A stretch of DNA of 64,000 nucleotides from Pseudomonas synxantha. Lineage in GTDB: Bacteria > Pseudomonadota > Gammaproteobacteria > Pseudomonadales > Pseudomonadaceae. A program made the position numbers and the translations under genes. The DNA lies in contig NZ_LT629786.1 in NCBI RefSeq assembly GCF_900105675.1, positions 992,001 through 1,056,000 on the forward strand, written 5' to 3'. Shown here one piece after another: positions 4,356 to 46,033 of this stretch (positions are counted from its first letter, which is position 1; every line of letters starts with the position of its first letter). The notes below the pieces were generated by a model. The model searched no databases, was not told the DNA's origin, and worked only from the letters and a program-made list of their open reading frames with translations.

Positions 4356-4361
4356 TCAAAA

Positions 4362-4450
4362 TGTGGGAGGGGGCTTGCCCGCGAAGACGTCGACCCAGCA
4401 AACATTGATGTTGGCTGACCCACCGCTATAGGGAGCCAGCCCCTCCCACA
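4362..4450. repeat. REP pair (REPIN-like)
   Basis: The left arm TGTGGGAGGGGGCTTGCCCG and a right arm ending CCCCTCCCACA face each other across about 50 bases that include the recurring CTGACCCACCGCTATAGGGA segment. It is the second of three such elements in the window. It fills most of the gap between the thiolase and EamA genes. Confidence 0.85.
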
Positions 4451-7582: not shown

Positions 7583-7594
7583 GCAGGAATGACC

Positions 7595-30821: not shown

Positions 30822-32011
30822 GGAAATCCTGAAAAAGACTTCCTGATTTGGCAAAATCTCCGGACACCAATCGCCGAGCTTTTCAATGAAGCAAATGACC
30901 TTCGCCGATGCCGAGTACGCCGGTAAGCGCAAGCAGACCCGCAAGGAATTGTTCCTGATCGAGATGGATCGGGTCGTACCCTGGAAGGGTTTGATTGCCC
31001 TGATCGAACCTCATTACCCGAAGGGCGAAGGGGGTCGTCCGGCCTATCCTTTGATGGCGATGCTGCGGGTTCATCTCATGCAGAACTGGTTCGGTTACAG
31101 CGATCCTGCGATGGAAGAAGCGCTGTACGAGACGACGATCTTGCGCCAGTTTTCCGGTCTGAGCCTGGAGCGGATCCCAGATGAAACTACCATCCTCAAC
31201 TTCCGTCGCCTGCTGGAAAAGCACGAGTTGGCCGTTGGTATTCTCGGCGTGATCAATGGCTATCTGGGCGACCGTGGCTTGTCGCTGCGACAAGGCACCA
31301 TCGTCGATGCCACGCTGATTCATGCGCCCAGTTCGACCAAGAACAAGGACGGCAAACGCGACCCTGAGATGCATCAAACCAAGAAAGGTAACCAGTATTA
31401 CTTCGGTGCCAAAGCTCACATTGGTGTCGACGATGAGTCAGGGCTGGTGCACAGCGTGGTGGTCACTGCGGCCAACGTCGCGGACATAACCCAACTCGAC
31501 AAACTGCTACACGGTGCTGAGAACGTGGTCTGCGCCGATGCAGGCTATACCGGTGTCGAGAAGCGCGAAGAGCATGCGGGACGCCACGTCATCTGGCAGA
31601 TTGCAGCCCGGCGCAGTACCTACAAAAAACACGGTAAACGCAGCGCGCTGTACAAAGCGATGCGCAAGATCGAGAAAGCCAAGGCCCAGGTTCGCGCCAA
31701 GGTTGAGCATCCATTTCGAGTGATCAAGCGTCAGTTTGGTTATACGAAAGTGCGTTTCCGAGGCTTGGTGAAAAACACTGCTCAGATGGTGACGCTGTTC
31801 GCCCTGTCGAACCTTTGGATGGCGCGTCGATATTTGCTCTCCAGCGCAGGAGAGGTGCGTCCGTAATGAGGAAAATAGCTGCTGCGAGGAGCGTTCAGCG
31901 GAAAAAATGGATGGAATAGGCGGCAGACGTGATCGGTTTTGAACGGCCGCCGTTTTTTGAAAGCACCTATGGCTCAGCAGTCGAAAAATAGCGGCCTACT
32001 TCAGACTATCC
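30822..32011 (+). mobile_element. IS5-family insertion sequence, complete
   Basis: A 1190-base element with imperfect 21-base terminal repeats. The left end is GGAAATCCTGAAAAAGACTT, and the right end read in reverse is GGATAGTCTGAAGTAGGCCG, with about 13 of 21 identities. The 4-base sequence TTAT immediately flanks both ends (30818-30821 and 32012-32015), as expected for the target duplication of this family. It carries one transposase gene. It lies between the GGDEF and lldD genes. Confidence 0.85.
30886..31866 (+). CDS. IS5-family transposase
   Basis: A 326-residue intact DDE transposase. The N-terminal DUF772-type region has GRPAYPLMAMLRVHLMQNW and the Asp/Asp/Glu sites are in IVDATLIHAP, VCADAGYTGVE and KVEHPFRVIKRQFGYTKVR. 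There are no internal stops or frameshifts, so the element may still be mobile. Confidence 0.95.
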   Translation: MKQMTFADAEYAGKRKQTRKELFLIEMDRVVPWKGLIALIEPHYPKGEGGRPAYPLMAMLRVHLMQNWFGYSDPAMEEALYETTILRQFSGLSLERIPDETTILNFRRLLEKHELAVGILGVINGYLGDRGLSLRQGTIVDATLIHAPSSTKNKDGKRDPEMHQTKKGNQYYFGAKAHIGVDDESGLVHSVVVTAANVADITQLDKLLHGAENVVCADAGYTGVEKREEHAGRHVIWQIAARRSTYKKHGKRSALYKAMRKIEKAKAQVRAKVEHPFRVIKRQFGYTKVRFRGLVKNTAQMVTLFALSNLWMARRYLLSSAGEVRP

Positions 32012-32244
32012 TTATAAATCAATCGACTGTATTTAAGGTCAGAAAAGTCTGGCAAACAATGGCGCCAGTTAATTGGCTGGTTGGAGCTGGAGTTGCTACA
32101 GCTTGCCCAGTTTTACTCTTTTTGCGGGTCAGGTTGTTTGTCGAAAATAAAGAAATCTGGATTGAGCCGCAAATACAGCACGGCTCCCATCACGATAAAA
32201 TCCAGGCATACGTTAAGGTCGAGAGGTATCGCCGAGCAGCAAGG
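32012..32244 (-). other. AT-rich gap holding an in-frame extension after lldD
   Basis: Between the IS right end and the lldD stop, the minus strand stays open in the lldD frame for about 43 codons after its TAG, to a TAA at 32113-32115. The reading includes CLDFIVMGAVLYLRLNPDFF. It contains one membrane-like segment and resembles the C-terminus of a small membrane protein. No independent start with a ribosome site is visible. It may be a remnant or coincidence. Confidence 0.3.
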
Positions 32245-33375
32245 CTAGACCAGGGTGCTGCGATCGATCTGTGCGATTGAAGTAACCCCGGTCAGGGTCA
32301 TCGCCACGCGCATTTCCTTGGCGAAGATATCCAGCAGGTTCTCCACCCCGTGCTGGCCCTCGGCGGCCAGTGCATAGGCGGCGGCACGCCCGAGCAGGCA
32401 TGCCTTGGCACCCAGGGCGAGCATGCGCACTACGTCGAGCCCCGAGCGAATGCCGGAGTCCACCAGCACAGTCAGGTCGTCGCCCACGGCTTCGGCAATC
32501 GGCGGCAACGCCTTGGCCGTGGACAGCACGCCGTCGAGCTGGCGACCGCCATGGTTGGAGACCACGATACCGTCGGCGCCGAAACTCACCGCATCCTTGG
32601 CATCCTGTGGGTCGAGGATGCCCTTGATGATCATCGGGCCTTTCCAGAACTCGCGGATCCATTCCAGGTCTTTCCAGCTGATCGATGGGTCGAAGTTGTT
32701 GGCGAGCCAGCCGATGTAGTCTTCCAGGTGGGTGGGTTTGCCCAGGTACCTGGAGATATTGCCCAGGTCGTGGGGGCGACCCATCAGGCCTACATCGAAG
32801 GCCCATTGCGGCTTGGTGATCGCCTGCAACATGCGCCGTTGCGCCGCGTATGGGCCGGACATGCCCGAGTGTGCATCGCGGTAGCGTGCGCCGGGTGTCG
32901 GCATGTCGACAGTGAACACCAGCGTGGTGACTCCAGCCGCCTGCGCCCGCTCCAGCGCGTTGCGCATAAAGCCGCGATCCTTGAGCACATACAGTTGGAA
33001 CCAGATCGACTGCGGGCTTTGCGAGGCCACTTCTTCAATCGAGCACACCGATACCGTCGACAGGCAGAAGGGAATGTTTTTATTGGCCGCCGCCTTGGCC
33101 GCTTGCACTTCCCCGCGCCGCGCATACATGCCGGTCAGGCCCACTGGGCTGAGGATCACCGGCATCGCCAGTTCAGTGCCAAACAGCTCGGTGCTCAGGC
33201 TCAGGTTGTCGACATTGCGCAGGATGCGCTGGCGCAGGCTGATCTCGACCAGGTCCGAACTGTTGGCGCGCAGGGTGTGCTCTGCATAGGCGCCGCCGTC
33301 GATGTAGTCGAACAGAAAGCGCGGCAACTTGCGCTTGGCTGCAGCGCGGTAGTCGGAAGCGGACGAGATGATCAT
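32245..33375 (-). CDS. lldD: L-lactate dehydrogenase (FMN-dependent, quinone-linked)
   Basis: Oxidises L-lactate to pyruvate at the inner-membrane face, passing electrons to quinone. The 376 residues begin [20 protein letters not shown], almost the LldD pattern. They carry [41 protein letters not shown] and the active His in [10 protein letters not shown], ending near [12 protein letters not shown]. The protein is slightly shorter than E. coli LldD (396). No lldP permease is adjacent. It is divergent from a LysR gene across a 100-base gap with a palindrome. A related 2-hydroxyacid substrate is possible. Confidence 0.9.
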
Positions 33376-33426
33376 CTACGGTGTCTCCACAGGGCAAAGT
33401 GCTACACCATAAGCAAAATCGTGACA

Positions 33427-33447
33427 TGATAAAAACAACTTTTATCA
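33427..33447. promoter_or_regulatory. Palindromic LysR-type operator between lldD and lysR
   Basis: TGATAAAA, then ACAAC, then TTTTATCA form a perfect 8-5-8 inverted repeat containing the T-N11-A pattern of LysR sites. It lies 29 bases before the lysR start and 52 bases from the lldD start, a position suited to controlling both genes. Confidence 0.6.
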
Positions 33448-33475
33448 CTGATATCCAGTCGCAAAAGGAATACTG

Positions 33476-34372
33476 ATGAACCTGCGAACCCTGCGTGCGT
33501 TTGTCGAGGTGGTGCGCCAGGGCGGCTTTTCCCAAGCGGCCGATACGGTGGCGCTGACCCAGTCCACCGTCAGCAAGGCGGTCAAGACCTTGGAGGACGA
33601 GCTGGGCACGCCGCTGCTTAATCGCCTCGGCCATAAGAACGAACTTACCGCTGCCGGTGAAATTGCCTACCGCCGCGCCCTGGTGATACTCGCCGAACGC
33701 AACGACCTGGTGGCTGAAATCAATGACCTGCGCGGCCTCAAGCGTGGTGTGCTACGCATTGGCCTGCCGCCCGTAGGATGTGGCGTGTTGTTTGCCGCCA
33801 TGTTTGCCGCTTACCGCAGCCGTTACCCGGATATCGATATCGAACTGACCGAATACGGCAGTAAAAAACTGCGCGAATGCCTGGAGGCGGGGGAGGTCGA
33901 CCTCGCGGCCCTGCTGTTGCCGGTAGACGAAGGCTTCGACTACCAGCCGGTACGCAACGAACCCCTGATCGCTGTGCTGCCTATCAGTCACCCGTTGGCG
34001 CGTCGCAAGCGCATCGACTTCACCGATCTGGCGGACTCGCCATTTATCCTGTTCGAGGCCGGCTTCGCCCTCAACGCCAAGATCCTCAGCGCTTGCGAGC
34101 GCAAGGGCGTGGCCCCCAAAGTCACCGCCCGCAGCGGGCAGATCGACTTTATCGTCGACCTGGTCGCCGCCGGGCTGGGAGTCGCCTTCCTGCCACGCAT
34201 GCTGGCGCACAAGCACCAACACGCCGGCATCGCCTTGATCCCCCTGGACGAACCCCACACCGACTGGCACATCGCCCTGGCCTGGCGCGCCAGCGCCCAC
34301 CTGCCACCCGCGGCCCGGGCCTGGCTGGATTTGGCCCTGGAGCCGGCGTTTTCAAGCGGTCATGGCGGTTAA
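33476..34372 (+). CDS. LysR family transcriptional regulator
   Basis: 298 residues with an N-terminal winged helix (LRTLRAFVEVVRQGGFSQAA, STVSKAVKTLEDELGTPLLN) and a type-2 periplasmic-binding-like effector domain (GVLRIGLPPVG, AGLGVAFLPRM). It probably autoregulates and controls the divergent lldD through the shared palindrome. The effector is unknown; lactate or a related hydroxy acid is the natural guess from context. Confidence 0.92.
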   Translation: MNLRTLRAFVEVVRQGGFSQAADTVALTQSTVSKAVKTLEDELGTPLLNRLGHKNELTAAGEIAYRRALVILAERNDLVAEINDLRGLKRGVLRIGLPPVGCGVLFAAMFAAYRSRYPDIDIELTEYGSKKLRECLEAGEVDLAALLLPVDEGFDYQPVRNEPLIAVLPISHPLARRKRIDFTDLADSPFILFEAGFALNAKILSACERKGVAPKVTARSGQIDFIVDLVAAGLGVAFLPRMLAHKHQHAGIALIPLDEPHTDWHIALAWRASAHLPPAARAWLDLALEPAFSSGHGG

Positions 34373-34432
34373 TCGCGACAAGTGTCAGGGAAGGCTTGAC
34401 TTCTTCTTTTTAATCAGTAACATACGGCGCAT

Positions 34433-34508
34433 TCCGCGATAGCTCAGTTGGTAGAGCAAATGACTGTTAATCATTGGGTCCCTGGTTCGAGTCCAGGTCG
34501 TGGAGCCA
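34433..34508 (+). tRNA. tRNA-Asn (anticodon GTT)
   Basis: A 76-base cloverleaf. The acceptor TCCGCGA pairs with TCGTGGA (one G-T pair), the D arm is GCTCAGTTGGTAGAGC, the anticodon loop is CTGTTAA with GTT, the T arm is CCTGGTTCGAGTCCAGG, and CCA is encoded. It serves as integration site: its 3' half is repeated at 43,795. Confidence 0.97.
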
Positions 34509-34548
34509 GATAGAGAAAAGCCTGCAGAGATGCAGGCTTTTTTTTTGC
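34486..34548 (+). repeat. attL: tRNA-Asn 3' end plus terminator
   Basis: The segment from TTCGAGTCCAGGTCGT through the terminator T run and the following GC recurs at 43795-43855 in the same orientation. Differences are one lost G, one base fewer in the T run, and a paired C-to-T / G-to-A change in the hairpin. Such duplications mark tyrosine-recombinase insertion into a tRNA gene. Confidence 0.85.
34516..34546 (+). terminator. Intrinsic terminator of tRNA-Asn
   Basis: A perfect stem AAAAGCCTGCA / TGCAGGCTTTT with loop GAGA, continuing into nine T residues. Confidence 0.93.
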
Positions 34549-34760: not shown

Positions 34761-35291
34761 TTAGCTATCTGCCAACCATGAACGAAAATCCGGTAACTGT
34801 TGGGCCAAATCTGCGTTTCTACATCCAAGACTGGCGAGATTGATCGACTCACCCATTGGTACGCAGCGGACTTTAAATCTTGATATTCAACATTCGATAG
34901 CCGAACCATAGGTCCAGCGTGACCTATTGCTCGACCTTGTTCAGCGCTGTCTGGCTTGCTTCGACATACGGAATTGGAAGGTTAGTCCGAAACCTTTAGA
35001 GCATCGTGAACTCAGTAACCCACCAAAATTTCCGCTGGCTTTTTTGAAGCGTTATATGCAAGCGAGAAGGCCTTGCAGAATGCAATAAAACCTTAACTTG
35101 GCCTTAACTGTTTTGACATGCTTGCATGGCTTAGATACTTCGGCATCTACGCACTTCGTTATTTGAAGTATCGAGAAATATTTTGCGGGCGACATCTCAG
35201 GCGCAAGGTATGCACACTTTAAAGATGTCACCAGAGGGGGGATGTGCAAAGAGGCTTAAACATTATCCATTATTAAATCAGGTGATTAAAG
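34761..35291. other. AT-rich stretch without a confident gene
   Basis: About 530 bases between the intron remnant and the first precursor peptide. A minus-strand reading starting at 34909 (MVRLSNVEYQDLKSAAYQWV) is open for about 57 codons before running into the intron and tRNA, and could be a gene start cut off by the insertion. A 65-codon minus reading at 35052-35249 has no ribosome site and no family resemblance. Nothing else is recognisable. Confidence 0.4.
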
Positions 35292-35453
35292 ATGAGTACG
35301 TTAAGGGAATTGACCGCTGAAGAGCTGCTACTTGTTGCAGGTGGGGGGGATACATCACAGGATCCGATTTCCCATGATCCTGGGCCAGGTCTGGATGATG
35401 ATATGAGTCATGACCCAGGGGACGTATCTCCTCCAGATACTATTTCAATGTGA
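35292..35453 (+). CDS. Double-glycine-leader precursor peptide 1 (acidic core)
   Basis: A 53-residue peptide with the 18-residue leader MSTLRELTAEELLLVAGG, a classic double-glycine signal for a C39-peptidase ABC exporter. The 35-residue core is unusual: nine Asp, no Lys, Arg or Cys, and the pentad SHDPG twice, separated by a Gly/Asp linker. AGGTGA lies seven bases upstream, and a strong terminator follows. The leader nearly matches those of the peptides at 36555 and 38514. The function is unknown; a secreted microcin-like or signalling peptide is inferred. Confidence 0.8.
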   Translation: MSTLRELTAEELLLVAGGGDTSQDPISHDPGPGLDDDMSHDPGDVSPPDTISM

Positions 35454-35461
35454 TTGGAAAG

Positions 35462-35488
35462 GACATGACTCACAGTGTGAGTCATGTC
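35462..35488 (+). terminator. Hairpin after precursor peptide 1
   Basis: A perfect 12-base stem GACATGACTCAC / GTGAGTCATGTC with a 3-base loop, 8 bases after the stop, followed by ATTTATA. It gives peptide 1 its own transcript end. Confidence 0.75.
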
Positions 35489-35536
35489 ATTTATAGGGGT
35501 TGTGTATATCGATACATGTAGCCAATTTTTATTCAT

Positions 35537-35887
35537 TTAGAGATTGCTAGGAGGTCTTATATAAGTGGGGAGACCTTTTGATCTTGCCAAAGCATCCCAA
35601 TTGGCAAGGCGTGCCGTTTTTTCGTGTAAAGAATATAGGCATAATTCAGCACCTACTTGATTTTTCATGGACGGTGGAGGCTTTATACCCTGTATTAAAA
35701 CGGCAACGATTCCATCTGGCTCAGGGAAAAACGCCGACGACCTCAGGACTGAAGGGTTTATCAAGCTGGTCAAGCCTTTACATTCCTTTATGGCCGCTTC
35801 AATAATCTGGGTTTTTCCTACAGGCGCTGCGTTTACGAAGTTGCAAGAAACCCCCAGCACTAAAAAAACAAATAACAGAGATTTCAA
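35537..35887 (-). CDS. Small exported protein, unrecognised
   Basis: About 116 residues with a signal peptide (KSLLFVFLVLGVSCNFVNAA) and a mature part of about 95 residues with two Cys (KECKGL, ELCLYSL), possibly a disulfide. TTG at 35887 is chosen because AGGAG lies 7 bases upstream; the TTG at 35893 abuts the same site. It is convergent with precursor peptide 1. Size and export suit an immunity or accessory protein for a peptide system, but that is context only. Confidence 0.6.
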   Translation of the reverse strand: MKSLLFVFLVLGVSCNFVNAAPVGKTQIIEAAIKECKGLTSLINPSVLRSSAFFPEPDGIVAVLIQGIKPPPSMKNQVGAELCLYSLHEKTARLANWDALARSKGLPTYIRPPSNL

Positions 35888-36126
35888 TTTCAAGCTCCTC
35901 GTGCAGTAGTTAAAGCAAGCCTACTGTTGAATTTGTGCGATATCGTGACTGAACCGAAGGTATTTATTTAGCCGCCCGTGTGAATCGTAGATGGCAAATG
36001 GTCAGGCATCAATAGCAGCCCAGCGAATCGTGCTATGCGTTTGGAACGCCTGGGGCAAATGTTAGGCAAAAAACCTCTATCTGGACACCTTGTATCGAGG
36101 GTGACTTTCACAGACTGTCTATAATC

Positions 36127-36460
36127 TCATTTCAGCGTCCAGAATCCCAGGCGACCCAGATTGGCAGCCAGCCTCACGCGCGACCTGTTTTCGACCTCAG
36201 CCAACTGCGCTTGGATCGCCTCGACAAGGGTCTGTGCATTACGGATCTGGCAGGTACGCCCAAAACCTTCAAAGATCGGAATGCTCAATTGCAAGCCAAC
36301 GCCGCGGTCGCGGCCGCGCTCACTGCCATTGAATATCTTTGATTGCAGGCTTTGCGCATAGGCCGGTCCGCCGTCAGTGCCAAGGTTGGATGGTCAGCAG
36401 CACGTTTCTCATCGACAGCGGTCTGTGCGGCGTTAAGTCTAGCGTGCTAAGGCCATCTGG
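36127..36460 (-). pseudogene. Degenerate tolC fragment
   Basis: Across shifting frames the minus strand encodes pieces matching the intact TolC-family protein at 41616. They are ARLNAAQTAVDEKRA, SKIFNGSERGRDRGVGLQLS, IPIFEGFGRT and, after an internal deletion of about 60 codons, RLAANLGRLGFWTL. The N-terminal three quarters are missing. It is a second, divergent copy rather than a recent duplicate. Confidence 0.8.
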
Positions 36461-36520
36461 CAAGGAGTTTTGAAGCGGGTAGCGGATCGAGCAATTCAGA
36501 AGTGGTTCAGTAAACGTTGT

Positions 36521-36547
36521 AGCCTGGCTCGCAACGTGAGCCAGGCT
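36521..36547 (-). terminator. Hairpin after precursor peptide 2
   Basis: A perfect 10-base stem AGCCTGGCTC / GAGCCAGGCT with a 7-base loop, starting 7 bases beyond the stop of the minus-strand peptide gene. The T run behind it is short. Confidence 0.65.
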
Positions 36548-36554
36548 GCTTCAG

Positions 36555-36665
36555 TTAAAACGACATGCCTGTATCAAGGGCGCCATCGTCAGGATCAGGA
36601 GTCGTCGAATCAGTGGTGGTGCCACCGGAAACTAGCAATAGTTCTTCTGCCGTTAACGCTCTCAT
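36555..36665 (-). CDS. Double-glycine-leader precursor peptide 2 (acidic core)
   Basis: A 36-residue peptide with the leader MRALTAEELLLVSGG and a 21-residue core rich in Thr and Asp (TTTDSTTPDPDDGALDTGMS plus a final residue). The core has five Asp, no Lys/Arg and no Cys. The leader shares LTAEELLLV with peptide 1, although the genes are on opposite strands. A hairpin follows the stop. The ribosome site is weak (AAGAGA). Confidence 0.75.
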   Translation of the reverse strand: MRALTAEELLLVSGGTTTDSTTPDPDDGALDTGMSF

Positions 36666-36856
36666 TATCAGTTCTCTTGTGTGGGTTCTATAATTGCCGA
36701 GTGAAGTTGGTTTTTTGTGTCAAGATCATTAAAGGGTATGTCACATCGAGTCAATTAATCCGCAGGGTCGTGCGGGCAGCTCATAGTTAAATATAAGAAT
36801 GTTTCTGAATGACGCCGTATTCGTGACGGTTTCTTTGAGATGGCTCGAGTGCGCGT

Positions 36857-37369
36857 TCAGCGTTTGCAGTCAATTAATATCAAGCCGGTAGGGACACCCT
36901 CGGCGTTTTTTCTTTGCGTGTACAGTACGGCAAAAAATAACGCGGCTTTCCACATGATGAGCGGATTGGAGTCCATAGGAATTAGTCGGGCATCCAGGTC
37001 TTGCTTTTTCATCTGATATTGCCATTGCTGAAAGTCCAGTGTGCTCGTTTCGGTGCTCAATGAGTAGAAGAGCACGCAATCCAGATCGCCTGGGATGACC
37101 GTTGAGTCCAGAAAACTTCCACCTATCAGTATGATTTCAACGCCAATATCAGCCATCGCCAACTCTGCTATAGCGGTTTTAAGTCGTGCGCAGAGCAAGC
37201 TCCTTTTTGGATCTTTAGGTTCTTCAAAAAAGCTTGAAAGGGACGTTATATAAGGTGCTGAATTGATTGGGTTGCAAGTTGACTTGTTGTCAATGAAGGC
37301 TGGGAATTCCATGGTCTTGGCGTTGGAGTAATGCTGTGAAAAAAGCGAGTCTAAGTCGGTATTGGCCAT
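36857..37369 (-). CDS. Nucleotidyltransferase-fold protein
   Basis: 170 residues. The stretch VEIILIGGSFLDSTVIPGDL, running into DCVLFY, has the GGS-x(n)-DxD signature of the polymerase-beta nucleotidyltransferase superfamily, here close to DUF6932-type proteins. The two metal-binding Asp are in GDLDC. Such proteins transfer AMP or another nucleotide to protein or RNA, or act as antitoxins. It is divergent from the Fic gene across an AT-rich 266-base promoter region. It lacks a good ribosome site and is AT-rich. Confidence 0.65.
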   Translation of the reverse strand: MANTDLDSLFSQHYSNAKTMEFPAFIDNKSTCNPINSAPYITSLSSFFEEPKDPKRSLLCARLKTAIAELAMADIGVEIILIGGSFLDSTVIPGDLDCVLFYSLSTETSTLDFQQWQYQMKKQDLDARLIPMDSNPLIMWKAALFFAVLYTQRKNAEGVPTGLILIDCKR

Positions 37370-37636
37370 TGTGAATTATCCAATTGTGTGAGGAGAGAGC
37401 TGGTTTATTATAATTTGGTGGGGCGGCGGGAGTAGACAATGTATTACGTGTCTGCTGAGGGGTGCAACTTGTTAAGTAGGGAGGGCTAATAAAATAACAA
37501 ATCAATAAAAGTTTCACACGAATTTTGGAAAAGTGTCATGTTTCGTTGGTAGAGTGCTTTTTCTTGAGGGAATAGCTATTTTCAAATGTTGTCGTCGCAA
37601 GATTTATTTGTGCACGAGGCATAGGACCGGAATGAA

Positions 37637-38419
37637 ATGGATTTTGTCGTGGCAAAAGTAAAAGCGCATTTTAGAAAATCCCTAACGTACCCGGTTGGAT
37701 TGGTGCTGGCTGAGGGAACGGTTAAATCAGTGCTTAGCGCTCAGGCAAGACTTGAGACGTATAAAAATAAGCCGTGGCCTATTTCGCCCGAATCGGTATC
37801 GGCAGTGTTGGCGTGCGATGGCAAATCGCGGTGCTTCCGACATCCGCTGTTCGAGCATTATGCGACGAATAATGCGTTGGAGCCCTTGAAGAATAGAACG
37901 CCTACTGAACAACAGTATGTTGAGGTGTTTTCATCAGCACTTGAACAGTCTCTGTTCACCTTGAACTACTCGACGATTTGTGAACTGTTGGAAGCCGCCG
38001 CCTGCGCGCTCACAGGCACCGCTGTAACAATCAGGACGACGCGAGTAGGTGTCAGGCCTGATAAGCGTGGTTGCACAGTAGAGTTTGTTCAGGCGGCTGA
38101 TATACCATCGGCACTTATGGCCCTTTGGAAGTATGTGGCCGATTTGCCGAGCAGTCGCCAAGACTTATTGGGTGCATCCGTTGCTTCCGTAGGGCTAATG
38201 AATTGTCATCCGTTCGTAGATGGTAATGGGCGATTGGCACGTGTGTTGTTCAATGCCCTGATGGGGCGTACATCGCAAAACTACATTCCCTTATATGACT
38301 TTTATAACTGTTCGCCCGGCGCTCATGTATTGCGCATCCGGCAGGCTGAGCTATTTGGTGAGTGGGATGATTGGGTGCGTTTCCATTGCGACATCATTGG
38401 CTTTATGGCCGGTCACTAG
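37637..38419 (+). CDS. Fic family protein (putative AMP transferase)
   Basis: 260 residues with the full catalytic motif HPFVDGNGRLAR (His at about residue 191), so nucleotidyl transfer to a protein hydroxyl is expected. No S/TxxxE(G/N) inhibitory helix is evident, so control would have to come from another protein. The N-terminal 110 residues match nothing I recognise. Two overlapping ATGs (37632, 37637) lie in different frames. It sits between the nucleotidyltransferase and precursor peptide 3, so it may modify a peptide or act as a toxin. Both ideas are inference. Confidence 0.82.
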   Translation: MDFVVAKVKAHFRKSLTYPVGLVLAEGTVKSVLSAQARLETYKNKPWPISPESVSAVLACDGKSRCFRHPLFEHYATNNALEPLKNRTPTEQQYVEVFSSALEQSLFTLNYSTICELLEAAACALTGTAVTIRTTRVGVRPDKRGCTVEFVQAADIPSALMALWKYVADLPSSRQDLLGASVASVGLMNCHPFVDGNGRLARVLFNALMGRTSQNYIPLYDFYNCSPGAHVLRIRQAELFGEWDDWVRFHCDIIGFMAGH

Positions 38420-38513
38420 GTTTATTTTCTCAGAGGGAATTGAGGCGCCCATCAGGGCAAATAACCAACGGGCGGGCCATGGAAGGCTCTATCCGTCGCC
38501 AAGGAGTTATCAA

Positions 38514-38730
38514 ATGCGTGTACTGACGGAAAGAGTTGGCGCTTGTTTCGGGCGGCCAGACGACGGTTGAGCCTGTCACTGATTGGGAACCCGGAGAGTT
38601 TGAGTGGTTGGGATCAAATGGCGGTTACACAGGACCGACCTGGACTTCGGGTAATACCAGCGTCACCGTAGGCGGCTCTGCTTCGGGAGGCGAGCTGTCG
38701 GGGGGAGTCGGTTTAACTATTACGTACTAA
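38514..38730 (+). pseudogene. Double-glycine-leader precursor peptide 3, frameshifted leader
   Basis: ATG at 38514, with AAGGAG upstream, reads MRVLTE and then leaves frame at GAAAGAG. In the next frame ELALVSGG continues into a core of about 57 residues ending VGLTITY. The core is rich in Gly, Ser and Thr, has several Glu, and lacks Lys, Arg and Cys. A single indel in the A run would restore MRVLTE(K)ELALVSGG. The frame has a TGA just upstream of the shift, so there is no alternative start. It is a decayed gene or, less likely, one using frameshifting. Confidence 0.75.
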
Positions 38731-38778: not shown

Positions 38779-39171
38779 ATGAGAAATACATTACTCGCCT
38801 TGGCGCCGGCGCTGTTTTACACCGTCGCTCATGCTGCTGACCCGGCCAGTGTGCTAGGCCACGCATTCGGTTCTTTGAGCTGTGTAGAGCAGGAGGATCC
38901 TGATGGTCGCAGTACCTGTGAAGCCAGGGCGCTGTCAAATGGAAAGGGTTGCTATGGCTTGTCCAGCCAAACAATGCGGGATAAGTGTTTGGATGAGGCC
39001 TTGTACCCCATGAGCAGCGGAGAAATTGCAACAAAAGTAAAAAAGACCACTATCGCCAATCCGCTGCCGTCGCCGGAAAAGGCGTTCACCGTGCCACCGA
39101 AGTCGCTGCTGTCGGAAGACGAAATTAAAAGGCTCGAGCGATCATTTGGACTAAATAATGGGCCGCAATAG
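38779..39171 (+). CDS. Small exported protein upstream of aspartic protease
   Basis: 130 residues with signal peptide NTLLALAPALFYTVAHAADP. The mature part has four or five Cys (LSCVEQ, STCEAR, KGCYGL, DKCLDEA), consistent with disulfides in the periplasm. It shows no recognised domain. It overlaps the following protease gene by 14 bases, so the two are probably coupled. It lies just behind the terminator of peptide 3. Confidence 0.65.
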   Translation: MRNTLLALAPALFYTVAHAADPASVLGHAFGSLSCVEQEDPDGRSTCEARALSNGKGCYGLSSQTMRDKCLDEALYPMSSGEIATKVKKTTIANPLPSPEKAFTVPPKSLLSEDEIKRLERSFGLNNGPQ

Positions 39172-40387
39172 CCTCACTCTATACGTGGTCGCATTCTTGC
39201 TGTCGAACCCAGTGAGTGCTGTCGAGTTGCAGGACATACAAGCTAAACTGTATGCCCCGAGTTCTATTCCATTACGCGGTTTGGAAGCATCAAGAATAGA
39301 CGCTAATACGCTGCTTTCCGCCGTTCTGGCCAGGGCCCAGTCCAAGAAGCCCGCGACGCAAATCAACCTTAGTGATTGCGCAGTCCTCAATGTGGAAAAC
39401 ACGGCGACCGCCTGCAAACTCATACTGCTCGGTAATCACCTGAATGATGGGCACTTCGCGGCTTATGCGCAGGTCCTGGCGTCCATGACTGCAGAACAGC
39501 TTCGTCGAGCCGAACAGTTTATTGCTCAGTTGGATGTCGATACGCTCAAACGTGTGGGCGATCGGCAAACCGGCTTATTGAAGCGCACTCAAATAGTGTT
39601 AAGTAGTGAAGAAAATGATTATCTAAAAAGCGCCACAGAACCTTTGCTTGAAGTTGAAATAAATGGGCATGCGGCAAAGCTCTTGTTTGATACGGGCGCG
39701 AGCGTGACAGTTATCGGCGAGTCTGATGCCCTCCGATATGGCGTTGAATTGATTAAGTTGCCGGTGGGAATCAATAGTTATTACAGTCGGCAATCGGTGA
39801 ATGCCCAGTACGGCTTGATCAGGGAGATGAACCTTTCGGGCATTGAACTCAGAAACGTTCTGGTTGTAGTGGGCGGGGCGCTCAGTTTGTTTGGTCTGGA
39901 CCTGATGTCTAGTTTCGACAGTGTCATTGTTGGAAGTGAGCATATTGCACTGAACGTAACCTCCGCGGAAATAGAGGCGCTTGAACAGCAGTGCGTGGGC
40001 AGCGTCTTTCTAGGCAGCTCTTATTCACGACAAACTCAGTTTTTATATGTGCTCGCTAATGTGGATGGCCAACAAACCGCTGCTTCCCTTGATACCGGTA
40101 ATCTTTACTACTTAAGTGGCGGCGAAACCAAGGTCGGTTCAGCGAGGAGTGATCAGCGAAGCAAAATAGTGACCGATGCGAATGGTACATTTCCCCGAGC
40201 AATTACCCATACCACCACCAATCTGAACATAGGGGGGAGTGCGAAAGATGTTTCCTATACGACACTGGCCGAACAAAAGTACCTGACGCCCTATGTCTTG
40301 GGATGGCCAGCGTTTCAAGACTATGAATTGATATGGAACACACATGAATCAAGAGCCTGCTACAAACAAAAAATTCCAGTTCAGTAA
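39158..40387 (+). CDS. Periplasmic aspartic protease with two DTG lobes
   Basis: 409 residues with an N-terminal export signal (LTLYVVAFLLSNPVSAVELQ). Two retropepsin-type active-site motifs are visible: LLFDTGASVTVIG (Asp about 178) and AASLDTGNLYYLSG (Asp about 312). A one-chain, two-lobed protease like pepsin is therefore possible. Relatives in bacteria are called retropepsin-like aspartic proteases. Its operon position between a peptide precursor and an exporter suggests processing of a secreted peptide or an envelope protein. It overlaps its neighbours at both ends (14 and 44 bases). Confidence 0.78.
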   Translation: MGRNSLTLYVVAFLLSNPVSAVELQDIQAKLYAPSSIPLRGLEASRIDANTLLSAVLARAQSKKPATQINLSDCAVLNVENTATACKLILLGNHLNDGHFAAYAQVLASMTAEQLRRAEQFIAQLDVDTLKRVGDRQTGLLKRTQIVLSSEENDYLKSATEPLLEVEINGHAAKLLFDTGASVTVIGESDALRYGVELIKLPVGINSYYSRQSVNAQYGLIREMNLSGIELRNVLVVVGGALSLFGLDLMSSFDSVIVGSEHIALNVTSAEIEALEQQCVGSVFLGSSYSRQTQFLYVLANVDGQQTAASLDTGNLYYLSGGETKVGSARSDQRSKIVTDANGTFPRAITHTTTNLNIGGSAKDVSYTTLAEQKYLTPYVLGWPAFQDYELIWNTHESRACYKQKIPVQ

Positions 40388-40766
40388 GGGGCTGATGGCT
40401 GCCTGCTATGCCCTATTTTTCTCGGTCGCGCACGCGGCAAACATAAACGACGCGCGGACGGCCTACAACCGAGATGACTATTCAAGTGCCTATTCCCTGG
40501 CTTCTACGCTAGCCAAGCAAGCTAACGATCCTGATGCCAGAAATATGCTAGCGGGATTGCTATTCACGGGAAAGGGGCACACCCGGGATGTCAACGCCGC
40601 ACTAAACCTATGGACCGACTTGGCCCAACAAAACTATGCCGCTGCACAAGCGACCTTGGGTGCCTTGTATCTGGACGGACAGGCGATTGGCGCAGCTGAC
40701 TATGTTAAGGCCAAACATTATCTGGAGCTTTCAGCAGCACATGAACGCAGTTTGATACCCGAGTAG
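40344..40766 (+). CDS. Sel1-like repeat protein, probably C-terminally truncated
   Basis: 140 residues with a signal peptide (CYALFFSVAHAANINDARTA) and two to three Sel1-type helical repeats (ARNMLAGLLFTGKGHTRDVN, AQATLGALYLDGQAI, AKHYLELSAA). The last repeat ends abruptly at HERSLIPE, after which the sequence switches to the tail of an exporter gene. A deletion joint at about 40750-40772 is therefore likely. It is probably periplasmic with a scaffolding role. Confidence 0.7.
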   Translation: MNQEPATNKKFQFSKGLMAACYALFFSVAHAANINDARTAYNRDDYSSAYSLASTLAKQANDPDARNMLAGLLFTGKGHTRDVNAALNLWTDLAQQNYAAAQATLGALYLDGQAIGAADYVKAKHYLELSAAHERSLIPE

Positions 40767-40771
40767 GTAAC

Positions 40772-41619
40772 TTGATAGACAAGTTTTTCGAGCTGCGTAT
40801 GTTGCAACTGCAGGGCGAACGGCTGGCAGATATTGTTCTGCACCCACCGGAAACAACCGTTTCCAGTGTCGACCTGCAGACACTCATGGATTGTGATGCG
40901 AGCATTGAAATCCAGGGACTGCACTACCGCTATGCCGAGCAGGAGCCCTGGGTGCTGGACAACCTCGACCTGCACATTGCTGCGGGTGAGTCGGTGGCTA
41001 TCGTTGGGCCGTCCGGTTGTGGCAAAAGCACGCTGATGAACGTCATGCTCGGTATCCTGCCGGCCACTCGGGGGCAGATTCGTATCGCCGGTATCGAAAT
41101 GGCGCAACTGGGCCTGGATGGTTTGCGGCAACTGGTAGGTACTGTGACTCAGGACGATGTGCTGTTTGCGGGATCTTTGCGCGATAACATCAGTTTCTTC
41201 GACCTCAACGTGGATCAGTCCTGGTTGATCGAATGTGCCCGGATCGCGTCGATTCACAGTGATATCCAAGCCATGCCGATGGGTTACAACACTTTGGTGG
41301 GAACATGGGCACGGTGCTTTCCGGGGGGCAAAAGCAACGCGTGCTGCTGGCCAGGGCACTGTATAAGAAACCACGAATACTCTTCCTGGACGAGGCCACT
41401 AGTCACTTGGATGTCGCATGTGAACAGCGCGTGAATCAGGCCATTCAAGGGTTGCGAATTACGCGCATCATGGTTGCCCACCGCCCTGAAACCATTGCCT
41501 CTGCGGACCGTGTCATCCGGATTCTGGCCGGTAGGGTGGTGCATGACGATGCTGATGGACCAACGAATAGCGCACATACCGCGAACACTTCGCCAGAGAT
41601 GAAACAGAGCCAGGTATGA
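40772..41619 (+). pseudogene. C-terminal fragment of a peptide-exporting ABC transporter (CvaB/PCAT-like)
   Basis: The reading begins inside the membrane domain (LIDKFFELRMLQLQGERLAD) and continues into the ATPase with Walker A GPSGCGKST. A one-base loss near 41305 then shifts the frame. The rest (MGTVLSGGQKQRVLLARALY, ILFLDEATSHLD, VAHRPETIASADRV) lies in the next frame. The N-terminal C39 peptidase and most membrane helices are missing. LxGERLADIVL before the ATPase is typical of colicin V-type exporters that cut double-glycine leaders. It is non-functional as it stands. Confidence 0.85.
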
Positions 41620-43031
41620 AGCGATTATCCTCGGTTTTGATGATGGTTTTGCTGTGTTGTTCACGTTCTGCATGGGCCTTTGAGCCAGACGTTTTTGACA
41701 CTGCACGCAACGTTTCCCTGCAAGCGGTGTATGACGATGCACGTGGCGAGCTGCCGTGTAGTTTTGGCCGGCTGCCTGAACGTTTGCCGTTAGCGCTAGT
41801 GGTCGAACTGATTCTGTGCCACGACCCACAGACGCGTCTCAGTTGGGCCAACGCCAAGGCTCAGGCTGCCCAGGTTGGGCTCAGCCAGGCGGCGTATCTG
41901 CCGCGCCTGGATGGGCGCGTTAGCAGTAGTCGCGGCAATGGTCGGGTTGACTACGATGAGCCGGCCTTGCGTTCTGGTGAAGGGCACCGGCGGCACGACA
42001 GCGCCAGTCTTGAGCTCAGTTGGGTGTTGGTGGACTTCGGTCGACGCGGGGCCGCCTTGCGCAATGCCCGCCAGTTGCTGGTGGCTGCCAACGCTACCCA
42101 GGACGCCATGTTGCAGCGTACTTTTGTTGAGGCAGCGCAGGCTTATTACGATGCCTTGTCAGCTCAGCGCAGCTTGGCCGCCTCGGTGCAGATCACCGAA
42201 CTGGCGGCTCGCAATCTGGAAGCAGCGGATGCCAAATACAAAGCCGGTGCGGCCGCACTTTCTGATCGCTTACAGGCGCAAACAGCGTTTTCCCAGGCTA
42301 ATTTGCGCCAGATCCGCGACCGTGGAGCATTGCATAACGCTTTGGGCGTGATTGCCTTGCGCATGGGGCTATCACCCCAAACGACTCTGCAGTTGGCGGG
42401 TGACCTCACTCCACTGCCGAACACTCAGTTCCTGCAGGCGGCCGATGAGTTGTTGACCCAGGCGCGTCAGGATCACCCGGCAGTACTCGCCGCACACGCT
42501 AGGCTCAGAGCCGCTCAGGCGGCCGTTGATGAGCGACGCGCTGCCAACCTTCCGAGCCTGGCACTGACCGCCGACCTGACGTACGCCCGTAGCCAGCAAT
42601 CGAAGATATTCAATGGCGATGAGCGTGAGCGGGACCGCAGTATTGGTTTGCAGTTGAGCATCCCGATCTTTGACGGTTTTGGCCGGACCTACCAGATCCG
42701 CCAAGCACAAGCCCGTGTAGACGCGGGCCGAGCAGAACTGGCTGAGGTCGAGCAAGAGGTCGCGCTAGACCTGTGGGCCAGCTACCAGACGTTGAATGTT
42801 GAGACCCAAAGTCTGCAGCGCACCAGCGAGTTGGTCGATCAATCGCGCCAGTCGCTGGAGGTTGTCCAGGGCCGTTATCACTCCGGGGTGGGCAGCATGA
42901 TCGAGTTGCTCAATGCCTTGACCGCGTATTCCGGTGCTGAGCAAGAGCATATTCAAACCCTCAGCCGCTGGCAGACATCACGCCTCAGGCTGGCGGCCAG
43001 CTTTGGTCGACTGGGATTCTGGGCGTTGTAA
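41616..43031 (+). CDS. TolC-family outer-membrane efflux protein
   Basis: 471 residues with a signal peptide (VLMMVLLCCSRSAWAFEPDV) and two OEP repeats of long helices and strands. Examples are AKAQAAQVGLSQAAYLPRLD, WVLVDFGRRGAALRNA and LQLSIPIFDGFGRTYQIRQA. It would form the outer-membrane tunnel of a type I exporter. The ATG overlaps the stop of the ABC fragment (ATGA), so it belonged to that exporter operon. It is intact although its ABC partner is broken; the membrane-fusion protein gene is absent. Confidence 0.9.
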   Translation: MKRLSSVLMMVLLCCSRSAWAFEPDVFDTARNVSLQAVYDDARGELPCSFGRLPERLPLALVVELILCHDPQTRLSWANAKAQAAQVGLSQAAYLPRLDGRVSSSRGNGRVDYDEPALRSGEGHRRHDSASLELSWVLVDFGRRGAALRNARQLLVAANATQDAMLQRTFVEAAQAYYDALSAQRSLAASVQITELAARNLEAADAKYKAGAAALSDRLQAQTAFSQANLRQIRDRGALHNALGVIALRMGLSPQTTLQLAGDLTPLPNTQFLQAADELLTQARQDHPAVLAAHARLRAAQAAVDERRAANLPSLALTADLTYARSQQSKIFNGDERERDRSIGLQLSIPIFDGFGRTYQIRQAQARVDAGRAELAEVEQEVALDLWASYQTLNVETQSLQRTSELVDQSRQSLEVVQGRYHSGVGSMIELLNALTAYSGAEQEHIQTLSRWQTSRLRLAASFGRLGFWAL

Positions 43032-43794
43032 TGCTCGCTGCCTGGGTCACTTCGGTGTTGGCGCCCACAACGAGTCGCACGCATCAAAGAGGGGATTGCC
43101 ATCAAGAGGTAAGCGTCTGTGCAATACACCTTGCGGAATGAAACTGACCTTCACTGGGTTGAAATCGCAATCGCAATCGCAACGTCGGGGTTGCTGGAAG
43201 CGATGTTATCGCCAGCGCAGGATTGACCCAGTTACCGAAATTTTACTGACCTAGGCTCCTACGTTGTGAACCATTATCAGTGCTGGATTTTTGCCGATTG
43301 GGGTTAGGTCAGTGTGGCATCGGCCATTGGGTCGATTCGACATCAACGCCAAAAATTTGGGGCTTGGTCGTCCCCATATTTTTCTACATATCCATGAATG
43401 GGCTTATCGTCGCCAATTCCGTGGCGGGCGCGTTGGCCTTCTTTCCCCACAGAGCGGGTTCTGCTTCGTCACCCGTCGGGGCCATACACTATGGCAGCGG
43501 CATTTTCAGCTCAGCATTGTGGTCGAAGGGAACCCGCGGAAAGAGGTCCTGACCCAGTCGCCATGTCCGTCGATGCTGAAACCGAGCACAAATTGAACAA
43601 TTGTTCTTATGGGGGTAAATCTCAACTGTTCTTCTGGCCGATTGGTTTCCTGTCACAACTCATCAGTTCGGATTGCCGTGCTCAGGGGGATCCAAAGAGG
43701 TTGTATAAAATCCGGGCTTAATTAGGATAATAGTAGGGATAAGTATTTTTGAGGTCAGCACAATGTCTTTATAAAACAGGTGCTTATTTGTCTA
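43032..43794. other. Gene-poor gap with transporter remnant
   Basis: Between tolC and attR. It holds a short TCGCAA triplet repeat (43165-43182), the Bcr/CflA remnant listed separately, and about 240 bases of AT-rich sequence before attR in which nothing is recognised. Confidence 0.5.
43280..43552 (+). pseudogene. Bcr/CflA-type drug efflux MFS remnant
   Basis: A short open stretch reads MNGLIVANSVAGALAFFPHR, then AGSASSPVGAIHYGSGIFSS, matching the C-terminal region of Bcr/CflA multidrug transporters (conserved ANsxAGALAxFPxRAGxaS and GaxxYGsGi). The remaining 80 per cent of the gene is missing and the flanks are out of frame. Confidence 0.65.
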
Positions 43795-43855
43795 TTCGAG
43801 TCCAGGTCGTGAGCCAGATAGAGAAAAGCCTGTAGAGATACAGGCTTTTTTTTGC
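43795..43855 (+). repeat. attR: second copy of tRNA-Asn 3' end and terminator
   Basis: TTCGAGTCCAGGTCGT, GAGCCAGATAGAGAAAAGCC and a hairpin AAAAGCCTGTA / TACAGGCTTTT with loop GAGA repeat the tRNA end at 34486. The paired base changes keep the stem perfect, so this copy is an independently evolved terminator brought in from another host. Confidence 0.85.
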
Positions 43856-43937
43856 CTGGGATTTGACTCAGCAATCCAAACGCTTAGCGCGATTCCCATG
43901 ACGCCATCTCTAATCCTTCGATTCAGAGGTAAGGCCA

Positions 43938-44122
43938 ATGAAAGTCGCTGCAGTCGTTTCAACCAAACGCGGGCCGGGTAAAACCACGGTTGGCGTTAAT
44001 CCAGGCGCGTTCTGCGCCGACGCGGGTCTTCGTACTCGTTGATCTCGATACCCAGCCGTCACTGTCCTCGTTCTATACGCTAACGCATGAGGCTCCGGGA
44101 GGGACCTACCAACCTTTTTGGT
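43938..44122 (+). pseudogene. ParA-like ATPase remnant of an integrative element
   Basis: ATG at 43938 (after AAGG) reads MKVAAVVSTKRGPGKTTVGV, a worn Walker A. After a frameshift near 44030 it continues LVDLDTQPSLSSFYTLTHEA. This is the N-terminal pattern of the ParA/Soj proteins found at one end of ICE/PAGI-2-type elements. The gene stops being recognisable at about 44120. It lies outside attR, so it belongs to another, mostly lost element. Confidence 0.8.
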
Positions 44123-44123
44123 T

Positions 44124-44675
44124 TCAAAGCGTACAAGGATTAACCAGATTTACGATAGCGGTCATCGTCATGCTTGCTCTCCCATGCCCCGTGGCCTTTA
44201 CATAATCCTTTTCAGTGCCCACTAAGGTTCGCTTTCCTGGTTGGAGCATGGTGTCCACGATGAGTTTTTTCTTCGCTATATCCGGTTTAAAACTCGGCTC
44301 TACTGGCCAAATCTGCACGGCGTAGTGTTGCGCGAACAAAAACAGATTTGGAGTGGTGTCTACCGGCGTTTGTAGGTGCGCGCACATGACATCGCTGGCT
44401 TGTACTTCAACAATTTTTTTGTAGTGGGGCTTGTCGTAACTGGCCAATATCAATTTTGTCCGAGTCTGAACCCCCAGCGCTTCCTGAGGATGGCAAGGCG
44501 TCAGTTCACCATAGGCGTAGGCGCACCAATTCACCTGGGTCATTGTGACAATTTCTTCAGGTTTTAATGACAAGTCTTTCTGGATGCTCAACTGGTCTTG
44601 CGGCTTTTCGTAAGGGATTGCTGCACAACCAGTGAGCAATGTGAGCGTGAGCAGAGTGATGAAATTGAAATACAT
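44124..44675 (-). CDS. Putative lipoprotein
   Basis: 183 residues with a lipobox (LTLLTGCAAIPYEKP), so attached to a membrane by its N-terminal Cys. The mature part has Cys pairs (VNWCAYAYGELTPCHP, SDVMCAHLQ, VNPCTL) and no recognised domain. AGGA sits 6 bases upstream of the ATG. It is AT-richer than the core genome. Its 3' end meets the ParA remnant. Confidence 0.65.
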   Translation of the reverse strand: MYFNFITLLTLTLLTGCAAIPYEKPQDQLSIQKDLSLKPEEIVTMTQVNWCAYAYGELTPCHPQEALGVQTRTKLILASYDKPHYKKIVEVQASDVMCAHLQTPVDTTPNLFLFAQHYAVQIWPVEPSFKPDIAKKKLIVDTMLQPGKRTLVGTEKDYVKATGHGRASMTMTAIVNLVNPCTL

Positions 44676-44765
44676 TGCTTTCCTATCCTTGGTGGAGCTC
44701 GATTCGCAGCGATTCTACCGTCAAAAGCCTGCGCGGATTCAACGCAGGGTCAGATGAATTCAACG

Positions 44766-45068
44766 CTATTGAGCCCCAAGCAAGCCAGGAAGATCCTGTG
44801 GCTCGTCGGCATCCGTCGATTTACCCCCTGTGGCGGTGTAGCAGTCGTCTGCGCTGCGCCTGCCATCAGGGTAGACGATAAAGCCCCCGCGCCCATTGTG
44901 ACATTCGTGCAGGTATACCGACGCCAGCTCGCGTTGCTTATCAACATGGGCATTCAAGCGCGCGATATAGATACCCACCGCAACCGACACACAAACAATC
45001 AGCACTACACAGGCGACTAACTGGTTGGTATAGCTGGCACCGACGTCATCAGCATGCACGGGTGACAT
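44766..45068 (-). CDS. Small single-pass membrane protein
   Basis: About 100 residues starting MSPVHADDVGASYTNQLVAC with one membrane segment (LVACVVLIVCVSVAVGIYIA) and a polar C-terminal part with two Cys (HECHNGRGG, DDCYTATGG). The ATG overlaps the end of the upstream lipoprotein gene by 20 bases, suggesting coupling. A longer start at 45101 is possible. The function is unknown. Confidence 0.55.
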   Translation of the reverse strand: MSPVHADDVGASYTNQLVACVVLIVCVSVAVGIYIARLNAHVDKQRELASVYLHECHNGRGGFIVYPDGRRSADDCYTATGGKSTDADEPQDLPGLLGAQ

Positions 45069-45222
45069 ACCACGACCCTGAGTGCTCGATGTTGTGGCCA
45101 ATCGGAAACCAGCTGCTGCCTCCCATACGCACCCGCTGAGCTTGCGGTGGCAGGCAACCGACCAGCAGTGTGAGGAAAATCAAGGCTAGCAGGACGCCTT
45201 TGATCATCGAAGACAGGTTCAT
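45049..45222 (-). CDS. Small lipoprotein
   Basis: 57 residues: MNLSSMIKGVLLALIFLTLL, then VGCLPPQAQ, a textbook lipobox, with a short mature tail ending SWYVTRAC. It overlaps the small membrane-protein gene and is divergent from the response regulator (136-base gap), so the two-component system may control the pair. Confidence 0.55.
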   Translation of the reverse strand: MNLSSMIKGVLLALIFLTLLVGCLPPQAQRVRMGGSSWFPIGHNIEHSGSWYVTRAC

Positions 45223-45358
45223 GGCGATGACGAGCTCTGGACGAGAGGAACCTCAGCTTAATCAGCGCTGGGTTAACGTCAGGTAAACACCCGCAGGGAA
45301 CCGCTCGACTTCCGTTATCCTTCAAACCTCTGCGCACTCCCTGTCCGAGGTTTTTTCC

Positions 45359-46033
45359 GTGCATATCCACTTGCTGTTGGTCGAGGACAACCTGGATCTG
45401 GCCACCACCGTCATCGAGTACCTGGAGATCAGCGGCATCGTCTGCGACCACGTCACTAATGGCCAGACCGGGCTCAACCTGGCGCTTAACCAGCATTACG
45501 ACGTGATTCTCCTGGATATCATGCTGCCGCGACTGGACGGCCAGCAATTATGCGAGCGGTTGCGTCAGCAAGGCATTCAGACCCCCATCCTGATGCTGAC
45601 CTCGCTGGACGCCTTGTCGGACAAGCTCGCCAGTTTTGCTGCGGGCGCCGACGACTACCTGGTCAAGCCGTTCGAACTGGCTGAACTGCTGGCCAGGATC
45701 CGCGCACTGAGCCTGCGCCGCAGCGGTCAGACCAGTCGCCTGCAAGTAGATGATCTGGTGATGGAACTAACTACCCGCAAAGTCAGCCGCGCGGGCCAGG
45801 AGCTGCATTTGTCACCCATTTGCTGGACCTTGTTGGAAAGCCTGATGCGCGCAAGTCCCCAACCCGTTTCCCGAGAACGCCTGGAAGCGAAGATCTGGGG
45901 CGATGAGCCACCCGACAGCAATACGCTCAAAGTACATATGCATCGGCTGCGCAAGGCGGTAGACAAACCCTTCGGCCGGCCGTTGATCCATACCCTGCCG
46001 GGTGTCGGCATTCAGGTGAAAGCCCATGCGTAA
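45359..46033 (+). CDS. OmpR-family response regulator
   Basis: 224 residues. The receiver domain has DVILLDIMLPRLDG (phospho-Asp in LLD), LTSLDA and KPFELAELLARI. The winged-helix output has SPICWTLLESLMRASPQPVS and TLKVHMHRLRKAVDKP. It starts at GTG (45359) with GAGG eight bases upstream. It overlaps the kinase gene by 8 bases. The target is unknown; the divergent small lipoprotein genes are candidates. Confidence 0.93.
   Translation: MHIHLLLVEDNLDLATTVIEYLEISGIVCDHVTNGQTGLNLALNQHYDVILLDIMLPRLDGQQLCERLRQQGIQTPILMLTSLDALSDKLASFAAGADDYLVKPFELAELLARIRALSLRRSGQTSRLQVDDLVMELTTRKVSRAGQELHLSPICWTLLESLMRASPQPVSRERLEAKIWGDEPPDSNTLKVHMHRLRKAVDKPFGRPLIHTLPGVGIQVKAHA

Follow-up and report, generated by a model that had tools for sequence, protein, structure and literature searches.

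A 64-kb stretch of DNA (hereafter the window) within the single-contig, 6.84-Mb genome of Pseudomonas synxantha encodes three small peptides, called here A, B and C, on an island at a tRNA-Asn gene. Judged by their sequences, the three are precursors with double-glycine leaders of the C39 type, and the same locus in relatives carries a complete type I exporter. In the window this exporter is deleted and peptide C is frameshifted, so that here the peptides are orphans. What would they be for in a strain that kept the exporter? The reading preferred here, with a probability of about 55%, is that they are orphaned secreted competition peptides which, in intact strains, are cleaved by a C39 peptidase, exported, and act outside the cell.

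Three precursors and their families

Peptide A (35292..35453, + strand) is an intact precursor of 53 residues, consisting of MSTLRELTAEELLLVAGG followed by a 35-residue acidic core with nine Asp/Glu and two SHDPG motifs. Peptide B (36555..36665, − strand) is intact as well, with 36 residues, of which MRALTAEELLLVSGG precedes an acidic core of 21 residues with five Asp/Glu. Peptide C (38514..38730, +) has a frameshift inside its leader which leaves the leader start and the core in different frames; in P. haemolytica DSM 108987, P. fluorescens ISL-62 and P. edaphica RD25 it is one open frame of 72 residues. An earlier, sequence-only reading of this DNA had given the coordinates and translations of all three correctly, and its claim of a nearly identical leader holds for A and B, which agree at 11 of 12 residues over LTAEELLLV[A/S]GG although nine of the 12 codons differ. 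Since eight of these nine codon differences are synonymous, the leader is conserved as protein, a pattern expected of a conserved protein and not of copied DNA or random frames. The leaders measure 18 (A), 15 (B) and 15 (C) residues, within the 15–18 residues ending in GG or GA that are described for class II microcins, and A, B and the relatives' C have both this ending and the conserved hydrophobic positions.

The cores of A, B and C contain no Lys, Arg or Cys, and their computed pI is about 4. Acidity had been proposed as a trait common to all three, but it is unequal: the C core of P. haemolytica (57 residues, six Asp/Glu) is rich in Gly, Thr and Ser and mildly acidic, unlike A and B. Likewise, the proposal that the cores are unrelated is borne out for C against A and B, but A and B may be distant relatives of each other, given an apparently intermediate homologue (P0020). 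A strong hairpin lies 3' of each gene (z = −4.0, −3.2 and −5.0 for A, B and C), that of A (35462..35488, +) with a 12-bp stem; all three lack the T-run expected of a classical terminator and are missing from the output of the terminator scan, so that the hairpins, but not their standing as proper terminators, are supported.

Do the peptides belong to a named class? The Pfam family Bacteriocin_IIc (PF10439) gave peptide C 12.7 bits against a cut-off of 27.1, and A and B were not listed at E ≤ 1. The lantibiotic precursor families PF16934 and PF04604 gave peptide A 16.4 and 11.8 bits, below their cut-offs of 27.6 and 21.7, and because of these scores and the lack of Cys in the three cores the peptides do not qualify as lantibiotics. 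Graspetides are acidic ribosomally synthesised and post-translationally modified peptides with ester or amide links, for which an ATP-grasp ligase is expected in the locus; no ATP-grasp domain was listed among the Pfam-scanned locus proteins, the rest of the genome lying outside that search.

In a survey of 398 Pseudomonas species genomes, A/B-type peptides (E < 1e-10) occur in three: the window's own genome, ISL-62 (G186) and P. edaphica (G206). The same three have peptide C at E < 1e-30, and the same three have the 409-residue aspartic protease of the locus at 93% identity or more. Weak A/B matches in G060, G227 and G361 (E 0.014–0.046) were set aside as chance, the neighbourhood of the G227 match (L014) having no match to island proteins at E 1e-3; those of G014 to peptide C (E 0.0016) and of L003 and L004 (E 0.16 and 0.32) were also taken as chance. 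A further scan of 144 genomes gave clear matches in the window's own genome only, with G025 (E 0.009) set aside. A tblastn of A against plasmids found chance-level matches only (four records, E 6–10) and one of C none, and neither A2 nor A3 picked up a relative when viral contigs were scanned.

A profile of six A/B peptides matched 33 of 3954 candidate proteins at E ≤ 10, of which 12 lay below 1e-6; three of these 12 (P0001, P0003, P0005) were themselves rows of the query profile. The 12 family cores have 5–13 acidic residues, and ten lack Lys and Arg; a single Cys occurs in P0003 and another in P0004, both within altered C-terminal ends. Two types can be told apart, an 'HDPG' type (A, P0003, P0004, P0005, P0013) and a 'DPEPDPDDG'-like type (B, P0014–P0019), and the DPEPDPDD stretch varies in length among relatives. 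Among 19 weaker profile matches that owe their scores mostly to the leader, 17 carry a net negative charge and four lack Lys/Arg, a count biased because the query profile is itself acidic. The search with peptide C returned seven proteins, P0006 being identical to the query and P0007–P0012 relatives, of which P0010 is labelled 'bacteriocin-like protein' by its source; LG[ST]NGGYxGPTW is conserved across six aligned rows. Homologues with conserved leaders, on whose existence the sequence-only reading depended, were thus found for A/B and for C. That reading did not recognise the family: A and B indeed belong to small unnamed families, but the leader type itself is ordinary. Among titles and abstract beginnings, the literature search found no title on acidic double-glycine peptides of Pseudomonas, and the leader letters matched no paper. 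Four more unnamed double-glycine peptides (P0021, P0022, P0023, P0038) have a near-identical leader and acidic or Gly-rich cores.

The locus in relatives and its broken copy

The P. haemolytica locus (L015) begins with peptide A, followed by p118 (−), DUF6932 (−), Fic (+), peptide C, p130, an aspartic protease, a Sel1-repeat protein, HlyD, a C39 ATP-binding cassette (ABC) exporter and TolC; successive genes overlap in the stretches p130–Sel1 and HlyD–TolC. In ISL-62 this order is kept, starting with a B-type peptide and running via DUF6932 to TolC, and in P. edaphica the locus genes lie on two contigs. The P. haemolytica exporter combines a C39 peptidase (PF03412, 1.3e-35) with membrane and ATPase domains, and the C39 domains of ISL-62 and P. 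edaphica are 97–98% identical to it. It aligns with bacteriocin transporters of the PDB (4ry2 family, E 1.4e-98); with the peptidase-containing ABC transporters (PCATs) 4ry2 and 8vp3 the alignment of all three domains covers residues 35–719 of 742. The solved relative is named an ABC-type bacteriocin transporter, the comparison being one of transporters. PCAT, membrane fusion protein and TolC are all present in P. haemolytica and ISL-62, the domain scans covering the PCAT and HlyD of P. haemolytica.

Ratios of nonsynonymous to synonymous divergence (dN/dS) were 0.08–0.34 for peptide C (three pairs, relatives only), 0.19–0.37 for Fic, 0.23–0.32 for the protease and 0.09–0.17 for DUF6932 (six pairs each), 0.09–0.11 for HlyD (three pairs), and, from one pair each, 0.19 for the exporter, 0.15 for Sel1 and 0.26 for p118. 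TolC ranged from 0.12 to 0.54 and p130 from 0.17 to 0.83 (six pairs each), the highest p130 value being that of the window against P. haemolytica.

What is left of this system in the window? Alignment to P. haemolytica places a deletion of about 3.2 kb at 40744..40745. With it have gone the greater part of Sel1, the whole of HlyD, and the exporter's C39 peptidase and membrane domain. There remain a shortened Sel1-repeat protein (40344..40766, +), the ATPase part of the exporter, itself frame-broken (40772..41619, +), and an intact TolC-family outer membrane channel (41616..43031, +). The C39 query had no match in this genome, where no other C39 exporter was found; the sole PF03412 match is a stand-alone frame of 272 residues. 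As the C39 part is deleted and this match stands alone, A and B are left without an exporter of the C39 type here. The frame lies among repeat-rich exported proteins, which we take for a fap amyloid operon from their appearance. The idea of separate peptide cassettes served by one exporter on a tRNA island therefore fits the relatives, with their complete C39 exporter at the same locus, the leader homologues, and the joint occurrence of peptides and protease in the same three genomes, but fails if function in this genome is implied. Two tolC-like fragments, at 34829-34937 (−) and 36178-36446 (−), are 74–77% identical to the relatives' tolC, the second being 75.6–76.8% identical over 271 bp; they suggest that the island once had a second copy of the exporter.

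p118 (35537..35893, −), an exported protein of 118 residues convergent with peptide A, belongs to a family present in 150 of 249 Pseudomonas genomes (147 beyond the three island copies, at E 3e-15 to 3e-6), and its predicted fold (mean pLDDT 76.6) had no PDB match better than E = 0.12. The DUF6932 protein (36857..37369, −; PF22014) has what we assume to be a nucleotidyltransferase-like motif. The Fic-domain protein (37637..38419, +; PF02661) carries the motif HPFVDGNGRLAR and has sequence matches to Fic enzymes of the PDB (best E 0.0017); it retains HPFxDGNGRxxR, to which we presume a role in Fic proteins. p130 (38779..39171, +), an exported-looking protein of 130 residues from no known family, adjoins peptide C. 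The aspartic protease (39158..40387, +) is exported and has two DTG motifs, as expected of a pepsin-like enzyme with two lobes; confidence in its predicted structure is low (mean pLDDT 61.3), though Foldseek ranked two-lobed aspartic proteases at the top (9iy9, E 4e-13). A literature search for structure 9IY9 gave no paper. As a marker of the system elsewhere the protease was rejected, for another 24 of the 398 genomes have a relative 24–30% identical, and none of the 20 neighbourhoods taken from these 24 contained the exporter, Fic or a convincing double-glycine peptide. The flanks of two inspected distant-protease loci are presumably chromosomal catabolic genes. Both the protease and p118 are thus divergent kin of proteins that occur elsewhere in the genus.

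Competition peptides or something else?

The proposed mechanism is that, in intact strains, cleavage behind the double glycine by the C39 domain would accompany export of the acidic cores by the transporter, and that outside the cell these cores would act as bacteriocin-like competition peptides. Peptide C would be the operon-linked product and A and B exchangeable accessory cassettes; a protective role for the producer is conceivable for p118 and p130, and the peptide might be processed or retained in the periplasm by the two-lobed aspartic protease and the Sel1 protein.

Why killing? An antibacterial role is taken as the most likely one by analogy, since the recognisable peptides that accompany the nearest exporters are microcin-like. 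A C39 domain match at E ≤ 1e-8 was found in 44 of the 398 genomes, from which 37 exporter neighbourhoods were taken, several cut by contig ends and one (L147) being P. edaphica's own system. The exporter is 55–79% identical to 20 other Pseudomonas exporters (L115–L134), seven of which lie beside a recognisable, mostly Gly-rich, microcin-like peptide. Judged by reading, ten of the 36 other neighbourhoods have a recognisable double-glycine peptide: L115, L117, L118, L119, L122 and L127, whose exporters are 64–79% identical, and L125, L138, L141 and L143, at 49–58%, all with similar leaders. In the remainder, regular expressions gave no peptide or implausible frames only. Ten peptides from nine of these loci have cores of 50–94 residues, mostly Gly/Ala-rich (Gly+Ala 0.12–0.52), with pI 4.05–9.31.

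In the excerpted account of class II microcins (PMC10233263), a five-part description includes an adjacent membrane immunity protein and a signal of 15–18 residues ending in GG or GA. In the relatives the present locus shares with loci of the microcin V type, as that excerpt presents them, the 15–18-residue double-glycine leader, the C39-peptidase ABC exporter, the HlyD-type fusion protein and TolC (PMC10233263). It differs in having genes for Fic, DUF6932, an aspartic protease and Sel1 in addition, in the very short and acidic cores of A and B, in the deletion of the exporter from the window, and in that no adjacent membrane immunity protein was found. Since no such protein was found beside the peptides, the locus may be said to work like a class II microcin locus but is not filed as one. 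According to the same excerpt, the 15 microcins known in 2022 all came from Enterobacteriaceae, and double-glycine bacteriocins of Bacteroides, likened here by description and not by sequence, have the leader and no immunity protein (PMC10233263).

Several observations weigh against competition peptides. The A and B cores are, by their sequences, very short and acidic, which is unusual among peptides at related exporters; their lack of basic residues is not unique, because the L125 and L138 peptides have no Lys or Arg either. A crude Kyte–Doolittle test found no membrane-helix immunity protein beside the peptides. p118 and p130 show no strong hydrophobic stretch beyond the signal region, and p118 is not a dedicated partner, given how common its family is; as an immunity protein it was a weak candidate, weakened further by unrelated-looking neighbours in the two loci inspected. 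Frames of 40–220 residues in the islands of the window, P. haemolytica and ISL-62 (70, 77 and 92 scanned) gave four, three and three hydrophobic ones: the signal of p118, frames that overlie peptides or named genes or run antisense to them, two frames without an assigned place (P. haemolytica 7253-7630 and ISL-62 6340-6543), and one of 90–104 residues after tolC (window 43280-43552), which lies away from the peptides and matched nothing in Pfam. In contrast, L127 has a protein of 155 residues, membrane-spanning by eye, beside its peptide, and L122 a similar one near the exporter. The double glycine reads GD in the B-type accessory peptide of ISL-62, GS in the accessory peptide of P. edaphica and GC in P0019. 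Finally, microcin loci, in the excerpt's description, have nothing that corresponds to Fic, DUF6932, the protease or Sel1 (PMC10233263).

Could the peptides be secreted without killing? They might act as matrix, ion-binding or signalling peptides, and the missing membrane immunity gene together with A and B cores that look charge-dominated and of low complexity (SHDPG, DPEPDPDD) makes this a serious rival, to which we give roughly half the credence of the competition reading. A precedent is found in Synechococcus elongatus, where, in the excerpted report, several small GG-motif proteins (EbfG) take part in biofilm formation and their efficient secretion requires the Cys of the peptidase-transporter PteB (PMC4997328); that system is cyanobacterial and is likened by description, not by sequence. 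The microcin-like peptides beside the nearest exporters argue for killing instead, and no regulator or receptor gene was recognised in the locus. A less probable view, which we consider unlikely, is that A and B are functionless relics carried by the island and that, in intact strains, peptide C and the exporter are all that counts. The deleted exporter, the tolC remnants, the altered cut sites and a peptide B shorter than its relatives would agree with it, as would the P. haemolytica locus, where B was looked for and not found and the frame of A runs beyond its usual end. Yet the differences between the A and B leaders are nearly all synonymous, and independent sequences contain homologues of both peptides that have stayed open and alike, P0005 representing 83 contigs.

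The place of Fic and DUF6932 invites bolder ideas. The two genes lie side by side, adjoining peptide C, in all four loci, with dN/dS of 0.09–0.37 and the Fic motif retained, and one or both proteins might attach a nucleotide to the Thr/Ser/Tyr-containing cores, giving nucleotide–peptide conjugates. This idea, the least probable of those weighed, rests on gene position, and the pair could be an unrelated toxin–antitoxin or defence passenger. The co-occurrence of Fic with C39 exporters suggested by the sequence-only reading is seen in all four loci of the system but in none of the 36 other neighbourhoods, from all of which DUF6932, protease, Sel1, p118, p130 and peptide C are also absent at E < 1e-6. 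Hardly more probable is a mobile Pseudomonas secretion system for short repeat-based acidic peptides (SHDPG and DPEPDPDD types) which would be modified by a dedicated pair of Fic protein and nucleotidyltransferase and trimmed, after C39 export, by a pepsin-like periplasmic protease; if true, these secreted anionic peptides, which might bear nucleotides, would form a new class. The link of a C39 exporter with a two-lobed aspartic protease and Fic is a combination that the other 36 neighbourhoods do not have. The interest of the present genome is limited because its copy is broken; sequenced Pseudomonas strains with the whole exporter make the secretion and activity of these unusually short anionic double-glycine peptides directly testable.

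The tRNA island and its surroundings

The left edge of the island is a tRNA-Asn (GTT) gene at 34433..34508 (+), found by ARAGORN and Rfam (RF00005). A blastn of its end revealed an att-like direct repeat of 43 bp, made of the tRNA 3' end and the following hairpin, with copies at 34503..34545 and 43811..43853 that are 95% identical. The ISL-62 island (L016) is likewise bounded on one side by a sequence identical to the window's tRNA gene (4347-4424) and on the other by a repeat (17856-17922), and a tyrosine integrase (PF00589) adjoins the tRNA there. The flanks of the window island (32001-34390 and 43901-47000) have no match in 21 kb of ISL-62 sequence. Such features point to a mobile island. 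In P. edaphica, DUF6932 (L017 1154-1666) shows a synonymous divergence (dS) of 0.56–0.65 to the others, against 0.17–0.23 for the neighbouring Fic. This roughly threefold difference suggests a mosaic, in which the left part of the P. edaphica locus was exchanged.

Some neighbouring features may be added. Between tolC and the right repeat, the 90-residue frame at 43280-43552 (+) has one hydrophobic stretch, is found in ISL-62 as well (L016 17343-17657), and is presumably a piece of a transporter. The locus of P. haemolytica has a reverse transcriptase fragment at its right end (L015 17824-18507; PF00078). A few kb to the left of the island the window has an intact DDE transposase gene (30886-31866, +; PF01609, 9e-40), and at 60334-60525 (−) a C4 antisense RNA with its a1/b1 targets (Rfam RF01695, RF03163), which we presume to derive from a P1/P4-like phage element.

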